20,130 nucleotides of DNA from a virus. A program made the position numbers and the translations under genes. The stretch covers positions 1 to 20,130 of the IMG/VR virus record IMGVR_UViG_3300036770_000775, one strand, 5' to 3'. Positions within the stretch are counted from its first letter, which is position 1. Every line of letters starts with the position of its first letter. Positions 6,904-20,109 of the stretch are shown here, piece after piece. A model generated the notes under the pieces. The model saw only the letters and a program-made list of their open reading frames with translations, was not told the origin of the DNA and ran no database searches.

Positions 6904-7152
6904 TCATTTTGTCAATTGCCACAATAAAAACTCATTCTTCTCAACCCAATAATGATCTTCAACTGGTTCTCCAGGACCGTGTATCAAACGAACGCCGTGG
7001 TATGCACGTTTGCCCCACAACTGTTTGCCAGTTAAAAAGCAAGTTTGCGGACGCCAACAGATCTTTAGTTTCCATGCTTTGGCACGTCGGAGACCCCAGT
7101 CTTCCGATGGTGGGCTGCCCTGTACTTCGCTGTCCATTCTACTTAGGCCCAT
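6904..7152 (-). CDS. Unknown 82-residue phage protein
   Basis: The frame is open upstream through a TTG codon. I choose ATG 7152, which shares one base with the queE stop (TAATG). The middle carries FLTGKQLWGKRAYHGVRLIH and the end HYWVEKNEFLLWQL, so aromatic and positively charged residues are evenly mixed. Two cysteines (CWRPQTC) stand five residues apart, but no second pair is seen, so a zinc site is unlikely. Function unknown; it may be translated by coupling with queE. Confidence 0.6.
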   Translation of the reverse strand: MGLSRMDSEVQGSPPSEDWGLRRAKAWKLKICWRPQTCFLTGKQLWGKRAYHGVRLIHGPGEPVEDHYWVEKNEFLLWQLTK

Positions 7153-7997
7153 TATTTGCCCCAACCATTGCCCCAGATATCTACGTGCAATCGAGGACTA
7201 TACCAGTAACCACGGCGTAGTGCTTCGTCTGCTACGTTGATTCTGTTGCCGTTGTACACAGACACAACACCACCCACAGGCATCACAAACACAGGACCTG
7301 AAAATCCACGCAAGCGATATTCGTCCACAGCACGATCTAGTTCGCCAAAGTCTTCGACTTTTTCTACCACAAACTTTAGATAGGTGATACCATAAGTCTC
7401 GTAATTCCACACAATGTCTGGTTTAATTGCGTCTGCCCAGGCTTCGCCTGACACGCTTAACTTTGGGCTTACGCTGAATGTAATCTCTCCATACCAGTTT
7501 GCTAGGTATTGTTTAAACTCTCTTGACAGTTCTTGGGTACCATTGGTTTCAAATGTAATGTGACGAAGGCCACGTTCGTGTAGCATGTCTAACAGCTCAG
7601 GGTATGCACGTTGCCAACCTAACAATGGCTCACCACCTGTGATAACCAAGTGTACAGGATTGCCGTTGGGCTGTTGCCAGTTGCCATTAGGTAGCAATGC
7701 TGTCATTTTCTCTACCAGTTCCTCGGGGGTAAAAGTAGGGCTGAGGTGCTTGAAGTCTGGATGCCACGATGCATAGCTGTCACATCCAGTTGCCACCAAG
7801 GGTAGTTCTTCAAACGTTTTATACAAGTGCACATTCTTTGCCACTTGGTCCGCCTCCGGGCTCTTCTCGCCCGGCTTACACCCAAAACCTGAGCACGTAA
7901 AGTTACAACCGAACGTGCGGAGGAAAATCGAAGGAACGCCAACATAACGGCCTTCGCCTTGCGCAGAATAAAATAGTTCACTTACTTTGAGTTTCAT
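7152..7997 (-). CDS. queE: QueE, 7-carboxy-7-deazaguanine synthase (radical SAM)
   Basis: QueE rearranges 6-carboxytetrahydropterin to 7-carboxy-7-deazaguanine, the base precursor of queuosine and of deazaguanine DNA. The start (YSAQGEG at 10-16) and FLRTFGCNFTC are typical. GGE at 121-123 (VITGGEPLL) binds SAM, and FETNGT and SVSPKL follow as in the family. The 281-residue length is a little above usual. The cysteines are odd: C31 and C35 are followed by C40, and CDSYASW, which normally contains the third cluster cysteine, is displaced to C72 by about 34 inserted residues. The start at 7997 has AAGGA upstream and overlaps the MazG-like gene by 20 nt. The assignment is firm, the cluster ligand is not. 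Confidence 0.9.
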   Translation of the reverse strand: MKLKVSELFYSAQGEGRYVGVPSIFLRTFGCNFTCSGFGCKPGEKSPEADQVAKNVHLYKTFEELPLVATGCDSYASWHPDFKHLSPTFTPEELVEKMTALLPNGNWQQPNGNPVHLVITGGEPLLGWQRAYPELLDMLHERGLRHITFETNGTQELSREFKQYLANWYGEITFSVSPKLSVSGEAWADAIKPDIVWNYETYGITYLKFVVEKVEDFGELDRAVDEYRLRGFSGPVFVMPVGGVVSVYNGNRINVADEALRRGYWYSPRLHVDIWGNGWGK

Positions 7998-8274
7998 TAT
8001 TGTCCTTGAAAATATTAGACCATTGTTTTAATTTTGCAATTTTGTTTTTTGCAGCTCTGTCAACTTCTTCTTTGCTAACAACGTCGTATACTATACACAA
8101 ATCAATCATTGCTTGCAAGTCCCCTAGTTCTTCTGCTAGATGTTGTCTGTTAGTTAGAGGTTTACCGGGTTTAAAGTTGTCTAGACCGAATCTACTGATC
8201 TTGCTGACTGCCACAATTACTTCGGCACATTCTTCTTGCGTGATATCTAGAATTTCTTTTTCTGTTGCGTTCAT
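7978..8274 (-). CDS. Small MazG-like nucleotide pyrophosphohydrolase
   Basis: This 98-residue all-helical protein carries the MazG metal motif: EECAEVIVAVSKI at 14-26 and then EELGDLQAMIDL, the EExxE...ExxD layout. It would hydrolyse nucleoside triphosphates, perhaps to remove unwanted or modified nucleotides. The start overlaps the SGNH gene stop by ATGA, and the gene ends inside the start of queE. The position next to queE may be chance, but a pyrophosphohydrolase near a base-modification gene is worth noting. The residues HLAEELGDLQ fit phage MazG better than HisE. Confidence 0.75.
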   Translation of the reverse strand: MNATEKEILDITQEECAEVIVAVSKISRFGLDNFKPGKPLTNRQHLAEELGDLQAMIDLCIVYDVVSKEEVDRAAKNKIAKLKQWSNIFKDNNETQSK

Positions 8275-8975
8275 AATCTTGTTACTTTGGCCATACCAGA
8301 CTTCTTAGGGTCTTTTCGTAGATTGATTGTTTCATCATGCATTGTAGCACGAGTTTCGGCTTTTGTCACCCAGCCCGGTAACACTGCGTCCAAATAGGCC
8401 AAATGCTCATCCGGAGTAGGATGAGGATCTGGTCCAGGCTTTGGCCAGTTGCCAGCAAACACTGTTTTGTCATACCCGGGGGCGATAGTGTCTAACACAT
8501 CGCTGTACAATCGCATTGCGTCACGGTGCAAACTGACATCATCGTCTGGACTTGGTCTGGCCATAAGCTCGACCATGCTCAAAAAACGCCAGTTGACTCC
8601 TGATCTTGACTCTAGCAAAGTTTTTACAGCTTTTATGAATGCTAGGTCTCTTATTAAATACCCGCGCTCGTCGATATGCGTCTTGAGGTACTCGGTATTG
8701 TATATAGGAGTAGAAAACATGTTACCCGGAGTATGCCAACGTCCATCTACATATCTATCGTCTCGAGTAAAACTAGTCCAGCATACTACAACAGTATCAT
8801 CGGGTCCAAAATGATGCCTTTGATCACACTCCATTACACTATTAAAAATATAATGATTACCACCGCCTGATTGCCCCCAGTTTTCAAAGTAATCAAACTC
8901 AGGTGCTAAACAGTCAGCCCAGGTACTCCATCTGTAATTAGTAAAACTGCATCCAAAAGCAAATAATCTGCTCAT
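8271..8975 (-). CDS. SGNH-hydrolase-like protein (copy near 8.5 kb)
   Basis: The 234-residue protein begins MSRLFAFGCSFT, with the nucleophile position S10 in GCS, and has a glycine/asparagine block GGGN at 37-40. D183 and H185 in DPHPTPDEHLAYL fit the C-terminal DxxH block, although the spacing is DxH. There is no signal peptide. It starts 1 nt past the stop of the radical SAM gene. It is clearly divergent from the other two SGNH-like proteins of the window. The role could be deacetylation of a glycan or a non-catalytic function. The substrate is unknown. Confidence 0.62.
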   Translation of the reverse strand: MSRLFAFGCSFTNYRWSTWADCLAPEFDYFENWGQSGGGNHYIFNSVMECDQRHHFGPDDTVVVCWTSFTRDDRYVDGRWHTPGNMFSTPIYNTEYLKTHIDERGYLIRDLAFIKAVKTLLESRSGVNWRFLSMVELMARPSPDDDVSLHRDAMRLYSDVLDTIAPGYDKTVFAGNWPKPGPDPHPTPDEHLAYLDAVLPGWVTKAETRATMHDETINLRKDPKKSGMAKVTRL

Positions 8976-8976
8976 G

Positions 8977-10980
8977 TTACCCTGTTACTTGTTTGACAGA
9001 AAACGCACCTTGCGCTTTGCTAGCGCCTTGGCCACGTTGTGCGGCATTGGTGTTGAGTGTTTTGCCCACACGATCAACTGTTGCTTTACCAAAGTTCCTA
9101 CGCCGAGCAAAGTAGAACAGTTCAAGGAATCGCGGAAAGCTCATGGTTTTGTCTTCAGGAAACTCTAAATGATAGGATACAGGAGCTTCTGTTAGATCTT
9201 GATTGAAACTCAAAAACTCCCAGATATTATAATCAAGGTCTAAATTCATCGGATAGTGATTACGTGCTTCGTAGGCCACTAGATAGTTTCGTTGAAACTT
9301 CATGGCAGAAGCCAGCAGCTTGGGCGGCAAGTTATAACGTGCCATGAACTGCTCAAGCATGTCAAAGATAGACTCGTATTGTTTTTCCACGTGCATGTTG
9401 ATAATGCTGCGGTGAATCAAGTTCCAACCGTGAATCTCGATGCCAATGTTGGGATGCTCAATCTTGCCAGAGGTCATCCAGTTGGTATAGTATTGACGCA
9501 CTTGATCTTGTTCTTTACGTAACCATGCATGGTCCTGAATATATGCAAACAAATCTTTATAAAAATCTGAATAACTTACACCTAGATGCTTATGAACTAA
9601 TCGACTCAGCAGTGTGCTCACGCCATTGATGTGCATGGTATTAATGAACCACGAAAATACGTGTGCGTCTAACATTACATCCCAGGGCATGTCTTTGGTA
9701 CCAGTAATAATGTCAATGCTTTCAATTACATGTTCGTTAGAATAGCTGCCTGAGAAGTAGTCAGTAACTGGTTGACTGCTGATTTTGAACAGTTTCTTTT
9801 GCAGTAGATTCATCTCAGCATTTTCCAACAACTGCGCCTGGAACACAGTAATACCAGTATGGTTGCCCATCTCAAACAGTCTGTAAAAGTTTTGCTTCCA
9901 TGAATCTAATGTTTCGCCTGGCAGACCGAGAATCAACTCTGTGTATACAGGAATGTTGCGCTGCTCGCATAGTTCAAACACCTCTTCCAGTTTGTTGATC
10001 TCCATGTTCTTGCGGCGAATGTTTTCTAGTACGTCAAGATCCAAGCTCTGTACGCTGAGGGTAAGTCCTTGGTTGAAGCCACGTGCATCTAAGAGTTTTT
10101 TTACAATGTCAATAACTTCTCGCTTTTGGTTCTTAGCCCAGGCAACAGAGAATGTTCTAGGACTGCCATACTTTTCTTGGCATTCAACAATCTTGTCAGC
10201 AATCAAACCGTCGCGCTCTGGAAACATGCCAAAGTTAGCGTCAGTGATTGAGATCCAATCAAAATTACGCTTGGCCATCCATTCTAATTCATCAAACACT
10301 CGTTCTAGGCCAAACTTTTTAACTTTGTTATATGTAAGACTACCCCAGTCACAGAACGTACACTGAAAGGGGCAACCGCGATTGGTCTCTAGTGTGCCCT
10401 GCCAAGTGATGTTAGGATTGTCTGCTACAAGCTGATCAAATACTCCGCTCAAATAAGGACTAGGAATTTCTTCTAAACTTTCAATACGTTTAGCGTCTTC
10501 AGTTTGTACAGACTCACCGTCGCGATTGATTAGCAGCCCGGGGATATTCTCCCAGTCTCGGCTGTCCATATGCTGCATGACCTTGCGGAAAGTGATTTCT
10601 CCTTCGTAACAGATCACTAAATCCATAAATGGATTCTTACGAAATAGATCCGGGTCAGTAATAGCAGGTTCTGGGCCACCAAAGATGGTCAACAGGTTAG
10701 GATTGATTTCTTTAGCTCGTCGTGCTAGCTCGTAGTTATAGTTGTGATTCCATACATAGGTACTGAATGCAACCACATCGTTCTGGGCCAAACGTTGTGC
10801 AATAGGTTCAACTTCATCTCTGCGCCAAATCCACTCAGTTACTTCCCACGCATCCTTAATAGCAGTATCAGCAATAGCATAGCTCCAGATTACCCCAGCT
10901 GAATAAGGCAAGTAGTAAGCATTAAACTCTTTAGGACCTTGTTGAAAGTTGGGCTGAACCCAGGCGATCTTTTTTTTCAT
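8977..10980 (-). CDS. B12-binding-type radical SAM enzyme
   Basis: Residues 1 to about 135 resemble a cobalamin-binding Rossmann domain (ending near ICYEGEITF). The cobalamin DxHxxG motif is not evident. The radical SAM domain carries CPFQCTFC at 203-210 (CxxxCxxC), which binds the 4Fe-4S cluster, and GLPGE near residue 350. At 667 residues it is in the usual range for this class, with a long C-terminal region of unknown use. Enzymes of this architecture do methylations, ring contractions and other radical chemistry. The start overlaps the glycosyltransferase stop by ATGA, and an A8 run lies at codons 1-4. It sits between queD and queE, but deazaguanine substrate specificity is not shown. Confidence 0.82.
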   Translation of the reverse strand: MKKKIAWVQPNFQQGPKEFNAYYLPYSAGVIWSYAIADTAIKDAWEVTEWIWRRDEVEPIAQRLAQNDVVAFSTYVWNHNYNYELARRAKEINPNLLTIFGGPEPAITDPDLFRKNPFMDLVICYEGEITFRKVMQHMDSRDWENIPGLLINRDGESVQTEDAKRIESLEEIPSPYLSGVFDQLVADNPNITWQGTLETNRGCPFQCTFCDWGSLTYNKVKKFGLERVFDELEWMAKRNFDWISITDANFGMFPERDGLIADKIVECQEKYGSPRTFSVAWAKNQKREVIDIVKKLLDARGFNQGLTLSVQSLDLDVLENIRRKNMEINKLEEVFELCEQRNIPVYTELILGLPGETLDSWKQNFYRLFEMGNHTGITVFQAQLLENAEMNLLQKKLFKISSQPVTDYFSGSYSNEHVIESIDIITGTKDMPWDVMLDAHVFSWFINTMHINGVSTLLSRLVHKHLGVSYSDFYKDLFAYIQDHAWLRKEQDQVRQYYTNWMTSGKIEHPNIGIEIHGWNLIHRSIINMHVEKQYESIFDMLEQFMARYNLPPKLLASAMKFQRNYLVAYEARNHYPMNLDLDYNIWEFLSFNQDLTEAPVSYHLEFPEDKTMSFPRFLELFYFARRRNFGKATVDRVGKTLNTNAAQRGQGASKAQGAFSVKQVTG

Positions 10981-11807
10981 TTTATTTTATTGTGTGGATT
11001 TGCAAACTGTACCATGAGCCGGTTGACATCATTCTTGGCTAACTTTTCCCAGGGGTCTTGTGTACCATTGAACACATTTTCAAAAAACTGTGTACTAACA
11101 CCAATAGTACGCATGTATGTAGCAAGTTTAGCAGCATCTCGGTGTCGCAGATCTAACATCTGTCGGCTGTGAAAATCTCGTGGGTCGTCGGGCTTGCCCT
11201 CTAGCATAGGACGATTGTTGTAAGTGTCGTCGAGATTGTTGCCTGTTAGATCATAACGATCGTGCAACACATCAACAGGAATACGCTCATAGATATCCAA
11301 CATGTATGCTTGCTGACTCACCCACCCGTCTTGTGTAGGATGTGGGCTAATGTAGCCCAATAGATCATACCACTTGCGAGGCACAATAGGGAAGATACTG
11401 TAAGGATGCAGATTGTGAGTACGATAGCTCAACAGCTTAAACTTGCCATCGTGGCTCATGATTTCTGTATCCCAACCTTGAGTTTCCATCACAGCATCGT
11501 CGTTCCAAATACACAGCCACTTGGAACTAGTTTGTGCTGCCATAGCATTGTTGTATTTGTGCAACCCGATATAGCCCATGCGGTCAAACTTCATTGCAGT
11601 ATACGCAATGTCTCTTGCATCTAACCAGGGCTGTAGATCTGTAGCAAAGTAGTTGAGACCAATGTCATCATCGCGATCAAATGCAAACATAATCTGCACT
11701 TGCTCGATGTTGTCAGCTAGTTCTACCAAACTACGGATACTGCGCCCAAGACTGTCAGTACGGCCACGAGTGGCCAACAGCATAGCAATGTTGTATTTGT
11801 ATTCCAT
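10977..11807 (-). CDS. GT-A type (family 2-like) glycosyltransferase
   Basis: The better start is ATG 11807 (MEYKYNIAMLLATRGR), giving 276 residues and a 1-nt gap after the queD stop. A longer upstream frame would overlap queD. LLATRGR and IMFAFDRDDD fit the first strand and nucleotide-sugar-binding region of GT-A folds. WNDDAVMETQGWD resembles the acidic motif that coordinates the metal and donor. The family uses nucleotide sugars, and the acceptor cannot be judged. The gene sits between queD and the radical SAM gene, within the same transcript. It may decorate a surface glycan, protein or, speculatively, a modified base. Confidence 0.7.
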   Translation of the reverse strand: MEYKYNIAMLLATRGRTDSLGRSIRSLVELADNIEQVQIMFAFDRDDDIGLNYFATDLQPWLDARDIAYTAMKFDRMGYIGLHKYNNAMAAQTSSKWLCIWNDDAVMETQGWDTEIMSHDGKFKLLSYRTHNLHPYSIFPIVPRKWYDLLGYISPHPTQDGWVSQQAYMLDIYERIPVDVLHDRYDLTGNNLDDTYNNRPMLEGKPDDPRDFHSRQMLDLRHRDAAKLATYMRTIGVSTQFFENVFNGTQDPWEKLAKNDVNRLMVQFANPHNKIK

Positions 11808-11808
11808 A

Positions 11809-12312
11809 TCACTCAAATAAGTCTTCGTTCCACTCACGATGGCCTTCACGGAAAGCCATGTTGCTTTGTGTTTCGCGTACTTCTACGCGGTAGCACCACA
11901 AACGTGCTGCTTCTCCCGGCCCCCACATTTCCGGAATGTAAACTCCGTTGACATATTTGTAAAGCATGTCTGATAACCCTTCACAGCCTAGTCGAGGTAG
12001 CACAACAATCTTGGCCATATTCTTCTCTTGTAGCAGTTTAAATGTTTCCATTTCTGGATCATCAGCGGCTACAATGAGTGTATGGTCAAACTGATCTTCC
12101 AGCTGCTTCTTGAGTTCTTTGAGCCCACCGTAGTCAGCAGCCCAGTTGCGAACGTCTAGATCGTTGGTACCGAAGTAGAACTTCATGCTGAACGAATAGC
12201 CATGAATCAAGTTACAATGGCTGTCGGCACGCCATTGACGATACGCACATGGAAATGCGTCATGATACTCCTTAGTCGAAGTATATTTGTATGTAATAGG
12301 TTGATTTGCCAT
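11809..12312 (-). CDS. queD: QueD, 6-carboxytetrahydropterin synthase
   Basis: QueD converts dihydroneopterin triphosphate to 6-carboxytetrahydropterin, the second step to deazaguanines. Length (167) and T-fold landmarks fit: C33 in HCNLIHGY is the catalytic cysteine, DHT at 76-78 supplies the Asp-His pair, and VEVRET near 143-148 holds the pterin-binding glutamate. DYGGLK at 60-65 matches the DxxxLK region. Two of three usual zinc ligands differ: the N-terminal AAH is AY (Y24) and HGH is HGY (Y39); the latter recurs in a known subfamily, the former looks unusual. The start has AGGAG and lies 87 nt after folE. Confidence 0.88.
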   Translation of the reverse strand: MANQPITYKYTSTKEYHDAFPCAYRQWRADSHCNLIHGYSFSMKFYFGTNDLDVRNWAADYGGLKELKKQLEDQFDHTLIVAADDPEMETFKLLQEKNMAKIVVLPRLGCEGLSDMLYKYVNGVYIPEMWGPGEAARLWCYRVEVRETQSNMAFREGHREWNEDLFE

Positions 12313-12399
12313 CTCTAGTCTCCTTTTAAAAGTAGCAAGTTTGATGACATGCAGAATTTATATAGCGGGGTGAACGTCTAAGACCGCTCAAGCAATTAC
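12313..12399 (-). other. Intergenic leader between folE and queD
   Basis: These 87 nt contain an AGGAG ribosome binding site just before queD and, further up, a TATATAAAT stretch (12364-12356) that resembles part of a T4-type late promoter (TATAAATA) without matching it fully. No good -35 box at a suitable distance and no terminator hairpin were seen. Transcription probably reads through from folE. Confidence 0.4.
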
Positions 12400-13101
12400 T
12401 TATCGCGGAGCAAAGTCTTGTTGGAGTTTAATATTGTCCATAAACTCTTTCTTAACGCCTGCATCAGTTTTAAATGCGCCCTTGAGCACAGTGGTTTGTG
12501 TTAGACTAGAGTGTGCCATAATACCGCGATTCTCGCAGCAGCCATGCACCGCCTGGATATAAACACCTACGTCTGTACTGCCTGTTGCTGCCATAATTTC
12601 TTTGGCAATGTCCATGGCAAGTTCTTCTTGTAGTGTACCTCTACGAGCACACCACTGAGCAATACGTGTGTATTTGCTCAGGCCAATAAGTTTGTCAGCA
12701 GCCAAAATACCGATGTAAGCAACACCGGAGACAGGCTGGTGGTGATGGCTACACATAGATTTAAGTTCACTTCGTACCACAAGCATGCCGTCATATGCGT
12801 CATCGGTGTGGTTAGGGAAGGCTGTTGCATTTGGTTTGTGTTCATAACGTCCACTCATGATTTCGTTAAAGTACATTTTAGCAAGTCGTCTTGCTGTACC
12901 ATAACTGTTGGGATCGTTCTCACGATCAATAAGCAAACGATCTAGCACTAGTTCAAATGCTTCTGTTGCTTCGTCAATGAGTTTGTGTTTTACTTCGGGG
13001 GTAATATATTCGCTAATATTATCACCGGCCCAAAAGCGTTTTCCGTCTAGGACCATTTTTTCGCGAATTGCTTGCGAAAGATTTTTACTTGTATCTGTCA
13101 T
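12400..13101 (-). CDS. folE: FolE, GTP cyclohydrolase I
   Basis: FolE opens GTP to dihydroneopterin triphosphate, the first step of folate and of deazaguanine synthesis. The zinc ligands C117, H120 and C188 are in SMCSHHHQPVSG and HGCCENRG. GLSK at 140-143 and RIAQWCARR follow, as in the family. The 233-residue length matches. SMCEHH is SMCSHH here, a mild departure. The start has GGAG and follows its own promoter with a palindrome. Since queD and queE are downstream on the same strand, this copy most likely serves base modification rather than folate. Phage folE is known in that role. Confidence 0.9.
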   Translation of the reverse strand: MTDTSKNLSQAIREKMVLDGKRFWAGDNISEYITPEVKHKLIDEATEAFELVLDRLLIDRENDPNSYGTARRLAKMYFNEIMSGRYEHKPNATAFPNHTDDAYDGMLVVRSELKSMCSHHHQPVSGVAYIGILAADKLIGLSKYTRIAQWCARRGTLQEELAMDIAKEIMAATGSTDVGVYIQAVHGCCENRGIMAHSSLTQTTVLKGAFKTDAGVKKEFMDNIKLQQDFAPR

Positions 13102-13132
13102 TTATTTCTCCGAGTTTGTGACGAGGATGTCA

Positions 13133-13149
13133 TACAATTATTAATTGTA
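13133..13149 (-). promoter_or_regulatory. Palindromic operator-like site overlapping the folE -10 box
   Basis: TACAATTA-T-TAATTGTA on the plus strand is a perfect 8-bp inverted repeat with one central base. One arm contains the -10 box TACAAT (13149-13144). A regulator bound here could block the polymerase, so it may be an operator. A chance AT-rich palindrome is also possible. It lies 32 nt before the folE start. Confidence 0.5.
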
Positions 13150-13173
13150 CTGTATTTAGACCAACGGTGTCAA
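13144..13173 (-). promoter_or_regulatory. Sigma70-like promoter of folE
   Basis: On the minus strand, a perfect TTGACA (13173-13168), an 18-nt spacer and TACAAT (13149-13144, 5/6) precede folE. The -35 box covers the stop codon of the short DegT-like gene. A start near 13137 would give a leader of about 35 nt with a GGAG ribosome binding site. It would allow folE, queD and the downstream genes to be transcribed separately from the dpdA end of the cluster. Confidence 0.65.
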
Positions 13174-13775
13174 TCTATAATTTTTATTTTTCTGCAATCT
13201 GGATATTCTACATACACCGGATCTGGGTTAGTTTCTTTGAGACCTTCAAGTAATGCAATACCTAATTCGGCTTCTTCGGGTGTGGGCTTGTAGTGGTAGC
13301 CAACACGAAACACTTGTTGATCTTGCCAGGGTTTAATAGCAAGATCCCTGCCATCATACCGCATACGGATAATAGATTCATATGCTACAGAATCATCTAG
13401 CAGGATGGCACCACCACGTCCAATGTGCAGAGGTTTGGTATGTCCAAAACTCAAACACTGTATTTGGCCTGCGCGATACATGTCTCTACGGCATAATCTA
13501 GCACTGTCCCAAATGCGTGTACCTTCAAATTTGTATTCACCAATCCATTGTTGTCTGTGCGACAAATGGTCTGGGAAATAATCGTATTTGATACCTAGCT
13601 TGTGCATGGTCATAGGAATGCTCAAATAAGTGAAAGGCGTAAAAGAACACTCTTTGATCTGGTCGTGCCGCAAACAAAGTTCAATTGCATGCGTACAGCA
13701 ATCAGTCATAATTGCATAAGGTGCGCCTGTGAACCGGGCTAACTCTTGTTCAAACTTTAAAATTTTATCAAACAT
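13170..13775 (-). CDS. Short DegT/DnrJ/EryC1-like PLP aminotransferase domain
   Basis: The family makes amino sugars (nucleotide-sugar aminotransferases or dehydratases). TDCCTHAIELCLR near 24-36, FTPFTY near 45-50, IWDSA (D90) and SFGHTKPLHIGRGG (K114, the PLP lysine) follow the family order. The protein is about 201 residues, roughly half the usual 370, and lacks the C-terminal small domain, so it may be inactive, a partner, or a compact phage form. I choose ATG 13775 because GGAAG precedes it. The gene overlaps the epimerase stop by 8 nt. A substrate role with the neighbouring epimerase is plausible. Confidence 0.75.
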   Translation of the reverse strand: MFDKILKFEQELARFTGAPYAIMTDCCTHAIELCLRHDQIKECSFTPFTYLSIPMTMHKLGIKYDYFPDHLSHRQQWIGEYKFEGTRIWDSARLCRRDMYRAGQIQCLSFGHTKPLHIGRGGAILLDDSVAYESIIRMRYDGRDLAIKPWQDQQVFRVGYHYKPTPEEAELGIALLEGLKETNPDPVYVEYPDCRKIKIID

Positions 13776-14712
13776 ACCACTTCCATGCATGCTGGATTAC
13801 GTCATCCAACTCGTAGTCTCTCCAGCGCACTAACCGATTAAACTTGTCTGCGCTGGCAACCAAAGCGTCTGGATCGCCTGTTCGGCGCTGTCCTGCTACT
13901 ACGTTTACTTTGCGTCCAGTGATGCGTTCTGCTGCTGCAATTATTTCTCTATTGCTGGTGCCAGTATTGCTGCCAAGATTATAAACACCTGCAGGTATAT
14001 TGCTGCTCAATGCAGCAATGTGTGCTCGAGCAATATCGGCTACGTGCACATAGTCACGCACACAAGTACCATCACGAGTATCGTAATCAGCACCGTTGAG
14101 CACAAACTCTTGCCCGTTGGCAATGCTTTCTAACACTCGGGCAATGATGTGAGTAGCACCTAGCTCTTGTCCGTGTCGGCCTTGTGGATCAGCACCACAG
14201 GCATTGAAATACCTAAACGCCACATAGTCAAGACCATAAGCAAGATGATAGGCAGCAAGTATCTGTTCTACCATCATCTTGCTTTCGCCGTAAGGACTAA
14301 TAGGCTTTAGTGCATCAGTTTCTTGGCAAGGCAATGCTGCCGCCGGAACACCATAGGTGGCAGCACTGGAACTAAAAATAAATCTAGTTTTGGGTATTGC
14401 TGCTAACACTATGTCCAATAGGTGCAGTGTTTTGACTACATTGTTGTTGTAGTAGTCGCTGGGGTTTTTTATGCTAGGGCCTACCAGGCTAGTACCGGCG
14501 CAGTGTACAATAGCTTCGGGGCGAGACTCAATGATCTTTCTAAAGGACTCGTCGCTGTCAAAGTCTGCTTGCACAAACTCCATTAGTCCGCCAAGGTGGT
14601 GCGGCAGTGGTCTGCGATCAATGCCAATGACTTCGTGCCCAGCATCACGCAATTGAAGGGCGATTTGCCCCCCGATGTAGCCAGCTGCCCCTGTGACTAC
14701 TACAGTGCTCAT
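13768..14712 (-). CDS. UDP-glucose 4-epimerase-like NAD-dependent sugar epimerase
   Basis: The 314-residue protein has the NAD-binding GAAGYIG at 8-14, the catalytic-site run SSSA at 114-117, and Y141 and K145 in SPYGESK, the extended short-chain dehydrogenase YxxxK pair. YDTRDGTCVRDYVHV and YNLGSNTG are typical of GalE. It would interconvert UDP-glucose/UDP-galactose or the acetylamino forms. The start overlaps the glycosyltransferase stop by ATGA. It supplies UDP-galactose-type donors to the glycosyltransferases of the window. Exact sugar specificity is not decided. Confidence 0.88.
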   Translation of the reverse strand: MSTVVVTGAAGYIGGQIALQLRDAGHEVIGIDRRPLPHHLGGLMEFVQADFDSDESFRKIIESRPEAIVHCAGTSLVGPSIKNPSDYYNNNVVKTLHLLDIVLAAIPKTRFIFSSSAATYGVPAAALPCQETDALKPISPYGESKMMVEQILAAYHLAYGLDYVAFRYFNACGADPQGRHGQELGATHIIARVLESIANGQEFVLNGADYDTRDGTCVRDYVHVADIARAHIAALSSNIPAGVYNLGSNTGTSNREIIAAAERITGRKVNVVAGQRRTGDPDALVASADKFNRLVRWRDYELDDVIQHAWKWYV

Positions 14713-15923
14713 GATTCAATCTTTACAACTTGATACTTTTCGTGAGCAACGTGGTCGCGATAGCGATTGCCCGATCGTAGCCATTGCTCACCAGCGCCAG
14801 TGAGTATATCAACAACGCGGTCAATAGTACCATCGTTCCACGCAGAAATAAGACCCATGTTGTGATGCGGCTCACGCAGGTTGTTTTGAACTTTGTGATA
14901 AGCGTCATCTATACTCCAAGGTACGTAGAGACGGTTTGGATCGTTGGCAAAAGTCTCGGGGAAGCTGCGATAAGCAGGATATACCACATTACAACCAAGA
15001 GTGTCAGCTTCTGAAACTGTATTGCTGACCCAGTCTTGTAAAGCACAATTAAACAGCACACGAGTATCATTAACAAGAGCATAGTATTCGTCTTTCTTTA
15101 AGTTTTCGTAGATTTTGAGACGACCTTGGCGCTCGAGCTTGCGGGCACGTAGAATATACTCCGGGTTGTTGCTTCGGAGTGGCCCACCTGAAAAGATCGC
15201 AAACTCACAAGGTTCTGTGGTAAGTTCATGATACATTTCAATAAGGTCCATGAAGAAGCCAGGTTGCTTTTCTTGGTCGAAACGTGCTGCGAAACCCACC
15301 CTCCGGGTACGCTGATCAAACGGTTTGATATTTGCTTTGCCGCCAATGCGCTCAAGAACTTCTTCTCGTCCAAATGCAAGGCCGGAAATGTTGTAGATCG
15401 GAGCAGTCCATCCAGCAATTCGCATGTGAGCGACCATTTCTTCATTGGTAGCCAGTACTGCACCGCCGCTAAAGGCAACCATTTCATTGACCATTTGTTC
15501 ATATAAACTCATCCATTTGCCCATGCCCCAGACATGCACAAAGTCATCGGGGTCAATTGCCTGTGCTAGACAACGAACATAAATTCTTGGTCGTTGTTCT
15601 GCAGGAATTTGATTCATGATGTAACCAAGACTTTCAAACCCTGGTTGGAACATATCTTCAAAGTAGACAACGTCCTCGCTGGTAACTTCGCCGTTCTTCA
15701 TCATTTGAACCAAGTTCATCATTTGGCTCATAGCAAAGTAACTGCGACCGTGTGCGTCTAGTACTTGTCCTACAGAGATAGCTTGTGTGTTATCAATTGT
15801 AGTACCGGGTACGTAGACAACATCGAGTCCGCGACGATCAAACACACGTCGATTCCACTCTGTAAGCTGTAGTGTGTAACGGGCTTCATAACTTTCCAGG
15901 CCCATGTAAAATAGTTTTCTCAT
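14709..15923 (-). CDS. GT-B (GT4-like) glycosyltransferase
   Basis: The 404-residue protein has a GT-B appearance: RRVGFAARFDQEKQPGFFMD near 200-225 matches the start of the C-terminal Rossmann domain, FAIFSGGPL follows, and near 300 comes FNCALQDWVSNTVSEADTLG, with the donor-binding acidic position of family 4-type retaining enzymes. The start at 15923 has AGGA upstream and overlaps the SGNH gene by 38 nt, a long but common phage overlap. With the epimerase and the other glycosyltransferase it suggests a dedicated glycan pathway. The acceptor is unknown. Confidence 0.78.
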   Translation of the reverse strand: MRKLFYMGLESYEARYTLQLTEWNRRVFDRRGLDVVYVPGTTIDNTQAISVGQVLDAHGRSYFAMSQMMNLVQMMKNGEVTSEDVVYFEDMFQPGFESLGYIMNQIPAEQRPRIYVRCLAQAIDPDDFVHVWGMGKWMSLYEQMVNEMVAFSGGAVLATNEEMVAHMRIAGWTAPIYNISGLAFGREEVLERIGGKANIKPFDQRTRRVGFAARFDQEKQPGFFMDLIEMYHELTTEPCEFAIFSGGPLRSNNPEYILRARKLERQGRLKIYENLKKDEYYALVNDTRVLFNCALQDWVSNTVSEADTLGCNVVYPAYRSFPETFANDPNRLYVPWSIDDAYHKVQNNLREPHHNMGLISAWNDGTIDRVVDILTGAGEQWLRSGNRYRDHVAHEKYQVVKIES

Positions 15924-16902
15924 TTTGTGTTCCTATGTTTAGAGTTTTAATTTTTTCAAGTATTTGTTGTGCATAATATCGATGGGTTTTTGGACCCGGG
16001 TGCCTATTGTCGCTACCAAAATCCAAAAAACTACTGTCAAAATCTAATCCCTTTTTTCCATGTATCATTACAAAACCTTTGTGTTTCGCACACTCAGCTA
16101 GTAACTCTAAATTTCCATGTATGTTTACGAGTATTAAGTGAGCACCAATTTTATTGCAAAAGTTACCAACTTGTTGTATTGACGACAGAGCCTCATATAG
16201 TCTATTTGGTGTGTCTAACAACGATAGAGGCACTACATTATTAAATTCGGGATCTGACTCGTAGTAACGAGAACCAACATGCGTTATTTTAGCACCATCA
16301 AACCACAAAAATCTACCCTTTGTGGTAATACCCCATACAACAATATCATCCTTGTTGATGTCAGATTTTAATATTTGATCTCTGGACCAAGAAATAGAAG
16401 ATCCTGATTGAGATAGATCAGTTACCGCAAGCGCAAGATCGTGTGCCAGAATATTTTGATATCGAGAATCTTTGTCTACACCGATCCCAAGTGTTGTACT
16501 ACATCCTGCAACCCATAATTGTCTTTGTGGTGTTTTTCTTGGAATTAGGGCCTCTACTCCGGTTACTTGATCGGGTACATTTTCAATAGGAATATTATAA
16601 AGATTTGCTACTAATCTAATATAATTTTCTGTTATCCAGGCGGCAGAGTAAGGAGAGCTACTTGTTTTCTTGTCATTCCACACTTTCGGAGGCATGTAAA
16701 TGATTTTACTAGCACTAGAGAGTAAATTAAAAAACTCAGCGATAGAAACGTCACCGATACTAGTATATGCTGTACCTTGATGCTTAACAAATATGTTGTT
16801 GTTGCTGATAAGGTAGGCCGATGGATCGTGTTGTTTAGCAATATTTGCCAAATATTCCGATGTGTCTCCAACGTACAATACTAACGGTGATTGTTCTCTC
16901 AC
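15886..16902 (-). CDS. SGNH-hydrolase-like protein with long N-terminal region
   Basis: The gene starts with GTG at 16902 (GTGA overlap with the preceding stop; AAGG upstream). Residues 1-128 show no recognised domain; an SGNH-like domain follows. AGCSTTLGIG at 132-141 carries the serine (S135) and SDNRHP at 297-302 carries D298 and H301. A G/N block (QSGSSISW near 165) may be the oxyanion part. The base composition is lower in GC (about 37-42% in sampled lines versus about 48-58% next to it), suggesting recent gain. It is one of three SGNH-like proteins. No signal peptide. The substrate is unknown. Confidence 0.6.
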   Translation of the reverse strand: MREQSPLVLYVGDTSEYLANIAKQHDPSAYLISNNNIFVKHQGTAYTSIGDVSIAEFFNLLSSASKIIYMPPKVWNDKKTSSSPYSAAWITENYIRLVANLYNIPIENVPDQVTGVEALIPRKTPQRQLWVAGCSTTLGIGVDKDSRYQNILAHDLALAVTDLSQSGSSISWSRDQILKSDINKDDIVVWGITTKGRFLWFDGAKITHVGSRYYESDPEFNNVVPLSLLDTPNRLYEALSSIQQVGNFCNKIGAHLILVNIHGNLELLAECAKHKGFVMIHGKKGLDFDSSFLDFGSDNRHPGPKTHRYYAQQILEKIKTLNIGTQNEKTILHGPGKL

Positions 16903-17348
16903 TTGAATAGACCTTGTATTTTGCCTTGTGCCTTGTTTTTGAGAGTGTTCAGTAAATCTTGATCGATATGAGCTGCTTGGGCTGCTGCTACCTTGCTTTG
17001 AATTTGCTCTTTGAGGCCATACTTCTCGTAAGGATAATCATGCTTGTAAGCGTAGTTATATCCTTCTTTAGCTTGTACGGCTTCTCGGTCTCGACGTTGA
17101 ATCTCGGCCTCAACTCGATGTAGACGATTATTTAGATGATTTATATCTTCGAACACTCTTCGCAAAGGACCACGATTGCGATCAATTGCAGGCTCGCTGC
17201 TTTCTGGGCGAGTCAGCGTTACAATCATCATGAGACTGCGTAGCGCATTTATTACACGCGGATCTGGACTGGTTAGTGCTTCATCAAACATGTCGACAAA
17301 GCGTTCTAGGTCAAAGTCTGCTTGGTCTGGGTCTCTTGCAGCGCTCAT
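16899..17348 (-). CDS. Unknown 149-residue helical phage protein
   Basis: The protein is charged and mostly alpha-helical, with a long central helix (EDINHLNNRLHRVEAEIQRR) that could form a coiled coil, and a C-terminal KVAAAQAAHIDQDLLNTLKN. A tyrosine cluster (YNYAYKHDYPYEKYG) separates the two. A multimerising or scaffold-type protein would fit but is not shown. Both ends are overlap-linked: ATGA with the 75-residue gene and GTGA with the SGNH gene. No family is named with confidence. Confidence 0.65.
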   Translation of the reverse strand: MSAARDPDQADFDLERFVDMFDEALTSPDPRVINALRSLMMIVTLTRPESSEPAIDRNRGPLRRVFEDINHLNNRLHRVEAEIQRRDREAVQAKEGYNYAYKHDYPYEKYGLKEQIQSKVAAAQAAHIDQDLLNTLKNKAQGKIQGLFK

Positions 17349-17572
17349 GCTGGACGATATCCTGCAAAACGTCTGCTATCTTCTGACCACATGTTCTTGG
17401 CGTTCTTGCCTTGAGCATGCTTGCTATACTGTTGCCATGCATAACTCTTGAAGTTATGCAGGTCCGCTTCGTTGTAGCGATACCCAAAGTCTTGGCAGAA
17501 TTCCAAGAACTTTTCCAGTTCGTCAAAAATTTCGTTGACACGGGGATTGGGTTTGATAGTTGGCTTGGCCAT
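17345..17572 (-). CDS. Unknown 75-residue phage protein
   Basis: It begins MAKPTIKPNPRVNEIFDELE with a proline-rich tail and then helices (FLEFCQDFGYRYNEADLHNF and YAWQQYSKHAQG). Small helical proteins of this kind are common next to deazaguanine genes in large aquatic phages, but I do not claim a function. GGAAA precedes ATG 17572, and the stop overlaps the next gene by ATGA. There is no membrane segment. Confidence 0.6.
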   Translation of the reverse strand: MAKPTIKPNPRVNEIFDELEKFLEFCQDFGYRYNEADLHNFKSYAWQQYSKHAQGKNAKNMWSEDSRRFAGYRPA

Positions 17573-17583
17573 GATATTTCCTA

Positions 17584-18027
17584 TTAGATATTGATAGATT
17601 GAACAGGTCGGTGAGTTTCATATTTGATGAGGGCGCCGTTTTCACCATCTTCGGCTACCTCAATCCACACTGCACGTTCGGGATACCGATCGGCAATTTG
17701 TAGATACAGGTCGTCTGCGATCATTTCGCAGCTTTTGAAATTGAGTTGCAGAGTGTCGGAGGCGTAAAGATTTTCCAACCATCTTTTGAACTGAATAAAT
17801 TCAATGTCTCGATCATTGTGGAATACATCGATCCATACTCGGAAATGGAAGATGTGGCGATGTGGGACACCCAGGAAAGATACGTCATACTCATCTCCTG
17901 TTGCAAGAGCAGGATCTGTAGCGGCAGCGGGATATTTGTGAATTCCTTCTTTTCTGAAGGTGACCCAGATTTTTCTTTCTGCATGTTGTTTAACCCTTTC
18001 GATGGTTTCGCGTTGTTGTTGATTCAT
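17584..18027 (-). CDS. T-fold (QueD-like) protein of unknown activity
   Basis: The 147-residue protein resembles QueD in secondary-structure order. HRHIFHFRVWIDVFH (56-70) corresponds to the HGH strand, IEFIQFKRWLENLY (75-88) to the DxxxLK helix, NFKSCEMIADDLY (96-108) to the NPTSEN helix, and WIEVAEDGENGALIKYE (121-137) to the last pterin-binding strand. The catalytic cysteine-histidine pair is not visible, and metal ligation by H56 and H58 is possible. It may bind a pterin or deazaguanine without QueD chemistry, or assist DpdA. The start overlaps the upstream stop by ATGA. Assignment to the T-fold is an inference from pattern, not from a database search. Confidence 0.5.
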   Translation of the reverse strand: MNQQQRETIERVKQHAERKIWVTFRKEGIHKYPAAATDPALATGDEYDVSFLGVPHRHIFHFRVWIDVFHNDRDIEFIQFKRWLENLYASDTLQLNFKSCEMIADDLYLQIADRYPERAVWIEVAEDGENGALIKYETHRPVQSINI

Positions 18028-18521
18028 AGTGGTTGGTCCTTGCTGTATTCATCCCAGCTGGTAAAAGTTTCTCGACTCATTAGGCTGTGTAAACTATGCG
18101 TCCACACACCGGGGTTAGTAGCATCAAAATCATTGTCGTCGATTTTGATCATAGTGTTGTAGTTCCATAATTTTACATATGGAATGCTTATACGAATCTG
18201 CGGAACAAAGTTGTTATACTCGCATAGGCCAGTATCATTAAATTCTTCTACATGGGTAATAGGAATGTCTAGGCTGCAAAGATAACCTCGGTCCAGGAAG
18301 TATTCAATCATACTTTCCCACCGTTGCCATTCTAAATGATCGTCAGGGTGGAAACTATGGTTAGCACCAAAGAAGATGTGCTCTGCACCGTTGATGTTTT
18401 CTGCAATAGTTTCCACAGGCATAATGCCTACTACAAACAAAGTAAGTTTACCAAACGCTGGAGTATGTTCCACTTCTTTGCCATGAAACAATGTTACATT
18501 ATCATGTCCTGCACGATTCAT
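18024..18521 (-). CDS. Unknown 165-residue protein next to dpdA
   Basis: It lies directly downstream of dpdA (20-nt overlap; AGGA before ATG 18521) and upstream of the T-fold protein (ATGA overlap). The order of regions is a beta strand (FGKLTLFVVGIMPV), HIFFGANHSFHPDD, a helical part (RWESMIEYFLDRGYLC), and an acidic end (KIDDNDFDATNPGVWTHSLH). Several His/Asp residues cluster there, but no known metal motif is matched. The tight coupling to dpdA suggests a shared process. Function unknown. Confidence 0.65.
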   Translation of the reverse strand: MNRAGHDNVTLFHGKEVEHTPAFGKLTLFVVGIMPVETIAENINGAEHIFFGANHSFHPDDHLEWQRWESMIEYFLDRGYLCSLDIPITHVEEFNDTGLCEYNNFVPQIRISIPYVKLWNYNTMIKIDDNDFDATNPGVWTHSLHSLMSRETFTSWDEYSKDQPL

Positions 18522-20109
18522 TGTGGATATCCTGTTCCATTTTATCTAATGTTGATGCGTCTAATTCTACACTATCATCGCTAGTGTTGTCAACTTCTGG
18601 TTGCCCAATATCAAACAATGCATTAAATTGGGTACGAGCATTCTTGGCTTTTTTGCCTTTGAACCCACGTGTACCCACAATTTGCATCCAATATGAATCG
18701 TATTGCTCGATGATATCTTCAGCGGTTTGTCGATTGGGCGCCGCAAAGATAGCTTCTACAATGTCTTCAAACTTGGCATAGTCACCGCCCTGGCGCCGCA
18801 TCATAGCAGGGTGTTCACCAGCATCGAAACGCCGATTAGCCTCTTGCACAGCAGTCAAGTGCATCCAAACATTGTGTCCCATGAGCAATGCATAAGAGAA
18901 ACTATCCCAGGATGTTTTGCCTTCCTTGCCAATCTTATTTAGATCACCAGGTTTGTAAATGCAAATATCTTTCATTGTCAGCATATCGCTTATTGGACTA
19001 TCCTGCCAGACATCGTAGATACCGTCGGCAACTACACCGGTTGACCACTTTCTTGTGTCAGTGGCGTATTTTTTGTCATCGGCCGAAGGAGCCATGCGAT
19101 ACGACCACTTTTCATCGTGGGGGAAAGTGTTTTCAAAATATACTTGTCCGTTGGCTGTTGCGAGGAACGGACTTGCGCAGTCAAAAGAGATGGTAAACGA
19201 CGGGTTGACATATTTCCTTACGGCTCGTTGAATGACGGTTAAGAGAACCGCCCACTCTAGCTTGCTGGTTCCCAAGAAGTGCATCCAATCATGCACACCT
19301 GGTTGTAGCAAGTTATCATAGCGTAGCGCAACTAGTCTTTTTAGTACTAGGTGCACATCGCACATGTTTTGTCCCCCCATGGCCCAGCCATCGAAGTGTG
19401 TATCAGGATATTTTGCAGGATCGCAAAAGTCTTTCATTTCTTGATACCAAGCTTCTGCTGAGGTATGGTTGTCACCTTGTAGCACGTTTAGGTACTTGGC
19501 GCCGCCGTTGTTCTTGCCTTTACGGTTGGCCATAAAGTATTCATTGTTATACTTTGTGGCTGCTACTGCTTCGGGCAGCGTTCGAATACCGCAAGCATCG
19601 CTGGCTTTTTTATCGTGAATAACCCAGGTTGGGATATCCAAGATCATACCGTAGTCAGCAATGTTGTCTAACCAGTTTAGGATCAGCTCACGCTTCTTTT
19701 GAGCACGGGGGCAACCACTGTTGGCTTTCCAATCACCTTCCCACAAACCTTTAGCGATCTGGAAACCGCCCGAGTCCCCAAGGATGAACGTGCCGGGTTC
19801 ACGGTTTCGGACCATGTCTTCCGACCAGTCCTGTTTGGCAAGATCGAGGTTGGCGTGGCCACCACTGTAAAGGCTCCACTTATAAGGAAATAAAGCCTTA
19901 GTGGCATTGAGCCAGTTAAGCTGCTCCATATCCTTAAGACCGTTAGGAAATCTCTGCGGATCGACATAAGGTTCGTTCCTTTGCTTGCCTATAAACGTAG
20001 CATAGAAGCCAGAAATTGCCGGTAAGAACACAGCATAATCATTCTGCTTGGCAGTGAGATTATCTTGGGTCAACTCGACCCCATTTGATTCTGAGCCAGA
20101 TTCGTTCAT
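18502..20109 (-). CDS. dpdA: DpdA-like DNA guanine transglycosylase (TGT superfamily)
   Basis: DpdA swaps guanine in DNA for a 7-deazaguanine base, by analogy to tRNA-guanine transglycosylase. GDSGGFQ (D112 from ATG 20109) matches the TGT DSGGFQ general acid/base. NVLQGD (201-206), WAMGGQN and HFLGTS (278-283) follow TGT order. FDCASP (309-314) carries the nucleophile position D310. The TGT zinc cysteine motif CxCxxC is absent, as in DpdA proteins. The size (535 residues) exceeds TGT by a C-terminal extension. An in-frame TTG at 20124 gives an alternative start and TAA at 20128-20130 closes the frame, so the 5' end is complete. Confidence 0.85.
   Translation of the reverse strand: MNESGSESNGVELTQDNLTAKQNDYAVFLPAISGFYATFIGKQRNEPYVDPQRFPNGLKDMEQLNWLNATKALFPYKWSLYSGGHANLDLAKQDWSEDMVRNREPGTFILGDSGGFQIAKGLWEGDWKANSGCPRAQKKRELILNWLDNIADYGMILDIPTWVIHDKKASDACGIRTLPEAVAATKYNNEYFMANRKGKNNGGAKYLNVLQGDNHTSAEAWYQEMKDFCDPAKYPDTHFDGWAMGGQNMCDVHLVLKRLVALRYDNLLQPGVHDWMHFLGTSKLEWAVLLTVIQRAVRKYVNPSFTISFDCASPFLATANGQVYFENTFPHDEKWSYRMAPSADDKKYATDTRKWSTGVVADGIYDVWQDSPISDMLTMKDICIYKPGDLNKIGKEGKTSWDSFSYALLMGHNVWMHLTAVQEANRRFDAGEHPAMMRRQGGDYAKFEDIVEAIFAAPNRQTAEDIIEQYDSYWMQIVGTRGFKGKKAKNARTQFNALFDIGQPEVDNTSDDSVELDASTLDKMEQDIHNESCRT

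Follow-up and report, generated by a model that had tools for sequence, protein, structure and literature searches.

The window, which is the whole 20,130-base IMG/VR record IMGVR_UViG_3300036770_000775, is a fragment of a large freshwater phage (a giant phage) with a putative DNA hypermodification module, and the genes examined all lie on its minus strand. In this lineage, homologues of FolE, QueD and QueE, a DpdA-type transglycosylase, a protein of the phrog_17812 family and a predicted GT-B-like glycosyltransferase (GT) are kept together without QueC (Table 1). A previous reading based on the letters alone (hereafter the sequence-only reading) had placed folE, queD, queE and a dpdA-like gene on one strand. 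These four genes were recovered at matching coordinates on the minus strand, but the reading had missed the linked QueD-fold paralogue and the glycosyltransferase. The four genes recur in identical order in dozens of IMG/VR contigs, and their grouping is therefore not a chance one.

The FolE, QueD and QueE homologues would make 7-carboxy-7-deazaguanine (CDG). In an alignment, residues C33, D76, H77 and E111 of the window QueD are conserved, and Cys31-x3-Cys35 and Cys72 of the window QueE align with other phage QueEs. The third QueE cysteine is displaced by a long insert, common to nt-1, PA5oct, ZZ01 and Vibrio 2.275.O. Both QueE and QueD are divergent, as NCBIfam equivalogue models matched them only below cut-off. 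Conservation was inspected in 15 records, consisting of 12 long IMG/VR relatives (G001–G012) and three named phages (PA5oct, Phosso and Vibrio 2.275.O). QueE at family level, FolE and QueD were each found in 14 of them. The sole record lacking all three is G005, which has no QueE-level match, no FolE, no QueD and no DpdA; the G012 fragment has QueE and no DpdA. QueF was found, among the 15, only in Vibrio 2.275.O. Several further radical S-adenosylmethionine (SAM) matches are present in the large relatives (G001–G012 and G020–G029), and G001 has nine QueE-profile matches.

The fourth gene encodes a DpdA-type transglycosylase, with a putative role in guanine exchange in DNA. The protein gave zero sequence matches in Pfam, PHROG, NCBIfam and PDB. 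Its earlier dpdA-like label rested on motifs alone, yet was right, since motifs, hhalign comparisons and predicted fold agree. The segments DSGGFQ, GWAMGG, HFLG and SFDCASP align with E. coli tRNA-guanine transglycosylase (TGT) and with nt-1 DpdA2, and the catalytic Asp of the DSGG(F/L)Q motif (D117) and the nucleophilic Asp of the (F/Y)D motif (D315) are invariant in 27 family members. With hhalign, the comparison gave 94.6% (E 7e-8) for DpdA2 of nt-1, a phage that was not matched by tblastn with the window protein, and for E. coli TGT 64.6% (E 6e-5) with a diverse alignment and 16% with a deeper, narrower one. No profile similarity to 9g DpdA was detectable (1.1%), and the protein was not assigned to the DpdA1 subfamily. 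An AlphaFold2 model (predicted local distance difference test, pLDDT, 83; predicted template-modelling score, pTM, 0.82) was compared to the PDB by Foldseek, and the seven best matches were TGT or QTRT2 (E 2e-7 to 5e-4, probability 1.00), with TM scores normalised by target of 0.46–0.54. The transglycosylase fold, proposed by the sequence-only reading as a check of DpdA, was thus recovered. By tblastn, hundreds of IMG/VR stretches contain relatives, and so do Vibrio 2.275.O (33%), PA5oct-like phages (32.6%) and Sinorhizobium phage Phosso (29%). By sequence comparison, the window DpdA belongs to a divergent branch that it shares with these named jumbo phages.

No QueC (PF06508) was found in the window, as the sequence-only reading had remarked, although its 20,130 bases are too few to prove by themselves that this genome has none; nor was any found in the 12 long IMG/VR relatives, PA5oct or Phosso, with lineage contigs of up to 364 kb; among the 15 records only Vibrio 2.275.O has it. 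Across 256 distinct IMG/VR loci the QueC profile matched nothing, and QueC was not found in eight of nine further phrog_17812 phages, the exception being a divergent QueC-like open reading frame (ORF) of Vibrio D479. No convincing QueC was seen in 21 further large contigs, one of which (L594) has an ambiguous 215-aa PP-loop ORF with a Zn-like motif. Weak QueC matches in relatives were, on inspection, mostly NAD-synthetase-like, asparagine-synthase-like or other PP-loop proteins. NadE-like genes recur in jumbo phage contigs (L165–L173, L589–L597) and mimic QueC in weak searches. The sequence-only reading had described a near-complete 7-deazaguanine route, with CDG or preQ0 as possible bases and perhaps a host or distant QueC. 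The route from GTP to CDG and the DNA-guanine transglycosylase stand, whereas the preQ0 part is not supported, the large lineage contigs, PA5oct and Phosso being without QueC. Modified guanines, which it had also proposed, are likely given these genes, their chemistry being deduced from the gene set.

The gene that accompanies the loss of QueC is phrog_17812, for which tblastn matches were obtained in 26 of 50,697 phage records. In whole-record searches it was present in 15 of 15 QueE-bearing records without full-length QueC, and QueE turned up in all 24 phrog_17812 records in which it was looked for. G005 does not have phrog_17812, and neither do nt-1, 9g and Vibrio 2.275.O, the three deazaguanine phages with QueC that were tested. 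In annotated records, phrog_17812 is close to folE, queE or the transglycosylase in ACP17, phiST, X1, RHph_I1_18, Ahp1, D479, MA9V-3, Bakedbeans and Phosso. Comparison with QueD by hhalign gave 90% (E 1.5e-6, versus 1.9% for a FolE control), and 38% (E 3e-4) with a deeper, narrower alignment. The best PDB matches of its AlphaFold2 model (pLDDT 92) were the 6-pyruvoyl-tetrahydropterin synthase (PTPS) 2dj6 and E. coli QueD 4ntk (E 5e-5 to 1e-4). Like QueD and PTPS, the protein thus combines a T-fold with three apparent zinc-binding histidines: H30, H56 and H58 are invariant in the family and would fit the zinc triad of QueD, H56 and H58 being backed by a weak alignment to 2dj6. Unlike QueD and PTPS, it lacks the catalytic Cys that precedes the HxH zinc motif by four residues and, by eye, the LDH dyad. 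As the position of the catalytic Cys is occupied by an invariant Leu (Leu52), phrog_17812 is not a 6-carboxy-tetrahydropterin (CPH4) synthase; a true QueD is encoded by another gene of the phage. We propose that phrog_17812 is a CDG-processing enzyme that replaces QueC. In 2023, Cui and colleagues reportedly added four 7-deazaguanines to those of phages, together with DpdL, DpdM, DpdN and DpdA3/4; DpdL is said to be a proposed CDG decarboxylase, and the deoxynucleosides of CDG and 7-deazaguanine (dCDG and dDG) to occur in phages. To our knowledge, that work holds no glycosylated deazaguanine. The phrog_17812 protein may be DpdL, which we take to be a candidate CDG decarboxylase.

The arrangement around phrog_17812 is well conserved. 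In distinct IMG/VR loci, which are interrelated so that their counts are not independent, DpdA is upstream of phrog_17812 in 196 of 200, FolE downstream in 88 of 99, and the GT at most 3 kb downstream in 180 of the 181 with enough flank. The family of the 18024–18521 protein, whose window member matched no Pfam family at E<=0.1, lies upstream of phrog_17812 in 198 of 224 such loci and has homologues in PA5oct-like phages and ACP17. No fusion of phrog_17812 with the GT or with DpdA was seen in the loci examined. Distinct arrangements are better evidence than these counts. The GT and phrog_17812 are associated with a jumbo-type DpdA in the window and PA5oct, and with one of DpdA2 type in ACP17, X1 and ZZ01. 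On bacterial-genome contigs, five of which are Magnetospirillum loci, the order is GT-phrog_17812-DpdA with overlapping reading frames. QueD follows these three genes in the Magnetospirillum contigs (L607, L608, L609, L610 and L615), and in Aurantimonas and Methylobacterium loci a weak match to Vut_1 (a YhhQ-like transporter; E 7e-5 and 0.009) lies between DpdA and phrog_17812. Synechococcus phage BUCT-ZZ01 (L240) has, between queE and queD, a gene annotated as xanthine-guanine phosphoribosyltransferase (12855–13316), near its DpdA2-type gene and GT.

All six named members of the GT family match Glycos_transf_1 at E<=1, the lowest E value being 8e-12. A search of the 50,697 phage records that started from the ACP17 member detected the family in 20, and phrog_17812 is present in 16 of them: two ACP17 records, eleven PA5oct-like phages, Phosso, X1 and ZZ01. 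Erwinia Ep032, where a QueC-type match lies near the GT-family gene, and three Xanthomonas PhiXhv phages make up the rest. One of the latter, PhiXhv-15 (L271, 7747–10981), has in a row a glutamine-amidotransferase-QueC fusion, an LmbE-like deacetylase and a related GT, which hints that the glycosylation idea may have a second version with an amino sugar. Identity of the GT with QTMAN, the queuosine-tRNA mannosyltransferase, which it resembles by eye, was not supported: the QTMAN N-terminal domain did not appear in the Pfam matches of 6 and of 14 family members. The position of GalE in the gene order is conserved in relatives, and this enzyme is a possible source of sugar donor.

Table 1. Genes and matches of the window, with the evidence for each assignment
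Feature	Coordinates	Strand	Evidence
QueE, CDG synthase, radical SAM, C31-x3-C35-x36-C72	7152..7997	-	phrog_2076 E 2.7e-52
MazG-like pyrophosphohydrolase, overlaps queE; module membership uncertain	7978..8274	-	PF03819 E 8.5e-5
Cobalamin-binding radical SAM protein, 667 aa	8977..10980	-	NF033712 E 2.8e-79, below cut-off
phrog_14945 glycosyltransferase match	10977..11849		PHROG search
QueD, CPH4 synthase	11809..12312	-	PF01242 (PTPS) E 2.5e-15; phrog_2389 E 5.5e-35
FolE, GTP cyclohydrolase I	12400..13101	-	PF01227 E 3.3e-39, above cut-off
DegT/DnrJ-type aminotransferase, short	13170..13790	-	206 aa, ~half usual length; conserved in relatives
GalE, UDP-glucose 4-epimerase	13768..14712	-	TIGR01179 300.8 bits, cut-off 262.3
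GT-B/GT4-like glycosyltransferase (predicted), N-terminal (E)xRYT motif	14709..15923	-	Glycos_transf_1 in family
phrog_17812 protein, QueD/PTPS-like T-fold (predicted), 147 aa	17584..18027	-	phrog_17812 E 5.6e-37
Conserved protein between dpdA and phrog_17812 gene	18024..18521	-	Conserved neighbour
DpdA-type transglycosylase, divergent jumbo-phage branch	18502..20109; alternative TTG start 20124	-	Motifs, hhalign, predicted fold

As in the window, a MazG gene is present in Cellulophaga phage phiST, where it lies between folE and phrog_17812. The cobalamin-binding radical SAM protein (8977–10980) was rejected as a pathway member and is probably independent: its family is also found in G005, which has no QueD, FolE or DpdA. 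Relatives occur in 99 stretches of viral contigs, not all of which have DpdA, and its closest relatives are methylcobalamin-dependent C-methyltransferases of the KedN5 type.

The mechanism that we favour, with about an even chance of being right, is that the phage makes CDG, phrog_17812 processes it, DpdA inserts the product and the GT adds a sugar, which would give DNA with a sugar-bearing deazaguanine, a chemistry deduced from gene content. FolE, QueD and QueE would convert GTP into CDG. Instead of QueC, phrog_17812 would consume CDG, perhaps by decarboxylating it or in some other Zn- or purine-dependent step, and DpdA would swap guanines of the DNA for the resulting 7-deazaguanine. The GT would put a sugar on the 7-deazaguanine, perhaps from UDP-Gal/Glc interconverted by the adjoining GalE, and the modified DNA would be masked from host nucleases. 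The sequence of the phrog_17812, DpdA and GT steps is not fixed in this proposal, and the sugar may be on the C7 substituent or elsewhere.

Several observations weigh against this mechanism. Taken alone, the window GT reaches only E 0.026 for Glycos_transf_1, below the Pfam cut-off, and the first Glu of its EX7E-like motif is replaced. Phages often carry glycosyltransferases that serve other purposes, and independent arrangements of the gene set number about five. Six phrog_17812 phages have no GT, and glycosylation is therefore not an obligatory part of the system. The window also holds other sugar genes (GalE, the DegT-like gene and the phrog_14945 match at 10977–11849), which suggest a sugar cluster. 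Both of the latter facts would fit a different account, to which we give a clearly smaller chance, in which the inserted base is CDG itself or, phrog_17812 being DpdL, a decarboxylated 7-deazaguanine, and the GT, though a frequent neighbour, serves an unrelated pathway, of glycans or of the surface. This account also accommodates the absence of QueC, the QueD-like nature of phrog_17812 and the reported dCDG and dDG of phages. It is at odds with a GT family almost confined to deazaguanine phages, with the proximity of GT and phrog_17812 in all but one of the loci counted above, and with the compact cassette that the two form with DpdA on bacterial contigs.

Two further points against the favoured mechanism concern the fate of CDG. 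In Vibrio D479, phrog_17812 occurs alongside the divergent QueC-like ORF, whose P-loop is degenerate, and CDG could still be a substrate for QueC of the host. If the phage merely boosted CDG, a host QueC would convert it into preQ0 for insertion by DpdA; hosts often encode QueC, and preQ0, preQ1, 7-amido-7-deazaguanine (ADG) or archaeosine (G+) have been measured in phage DNAs (PMC6884629). We consider this improbable, as the loss of QueC is stable across the lineage and tracks phrog_17812, and reliance on the host would leave both facts unexplained. Least probable is that the target is tRNA rather than DNA, the genes raising host tRNA queuosine during infection, as may happen with phages that carry queuosine genes but lack DpdA (PMC6884629). 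This phage and its relatives keep a DpdA-type transglycosylase, and QueC and QueF are absent, whereas the queuosine precursor needs QueC. That the favoured mechanism represents a widespread, unrecognised hypermodification of aquatic giant phages and some bacteria, in which a glycosylated 7-deazaguanine, made without QueC, replaces guanine by means of the QueD-derived phrog_17812, a divergent DpdA and a dedicated GT, is put forward more tentatively, at somewhat under even chances.

Modification of phage DNA by 7-deazaguanines with DpdA or DpdA2 is known from phages 9g, CAjan and nt-1 (Hutinet et al. 2019, PMC6884629), and the QueC-less phage Bipper might carry CDG (PMC6884629). Like these systems, that of the window has FolE, QueD, QueE and a TGT-like DpdA, with protection against restriction as the expected role (PMC6884629). 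In contrast to those of 9g, CAjan and nt-1, the window lineage is without QueC and QueF, and adds phrog_17812, the 18024–18521 family and the GT; its DpdA is not detectably similar to that of 9g and only remotely so to nt-1 DpdA2. Addition of a sugar to modified DNA bases after replication is a known phage strategy, described for the T4 alpha- and beta-glucosyltransferases (PMC13216743). Compared to these, the window GT, whose function is predicted, would act on another base and belongs to another, GT4-like family. The abstracts seen on 7-deazaguanine and glycosyltransferases describe no glycosylated deazaguanine in phage DNA.

What would be an ordinary call of a deazaguanine phage thereby predicts a new base in a way that can be tested, and the cassette is carried by named, sequenced phages: PA5oct, Paride, ACP17, Phosso, X1 and BUCT-ZZ01. 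If the prediction is true, a sugar-bearing guanine would be added to the known modifications of phage DNA, phrog_17812 would gain a role, and the lack of QueC in many phages would be explained.

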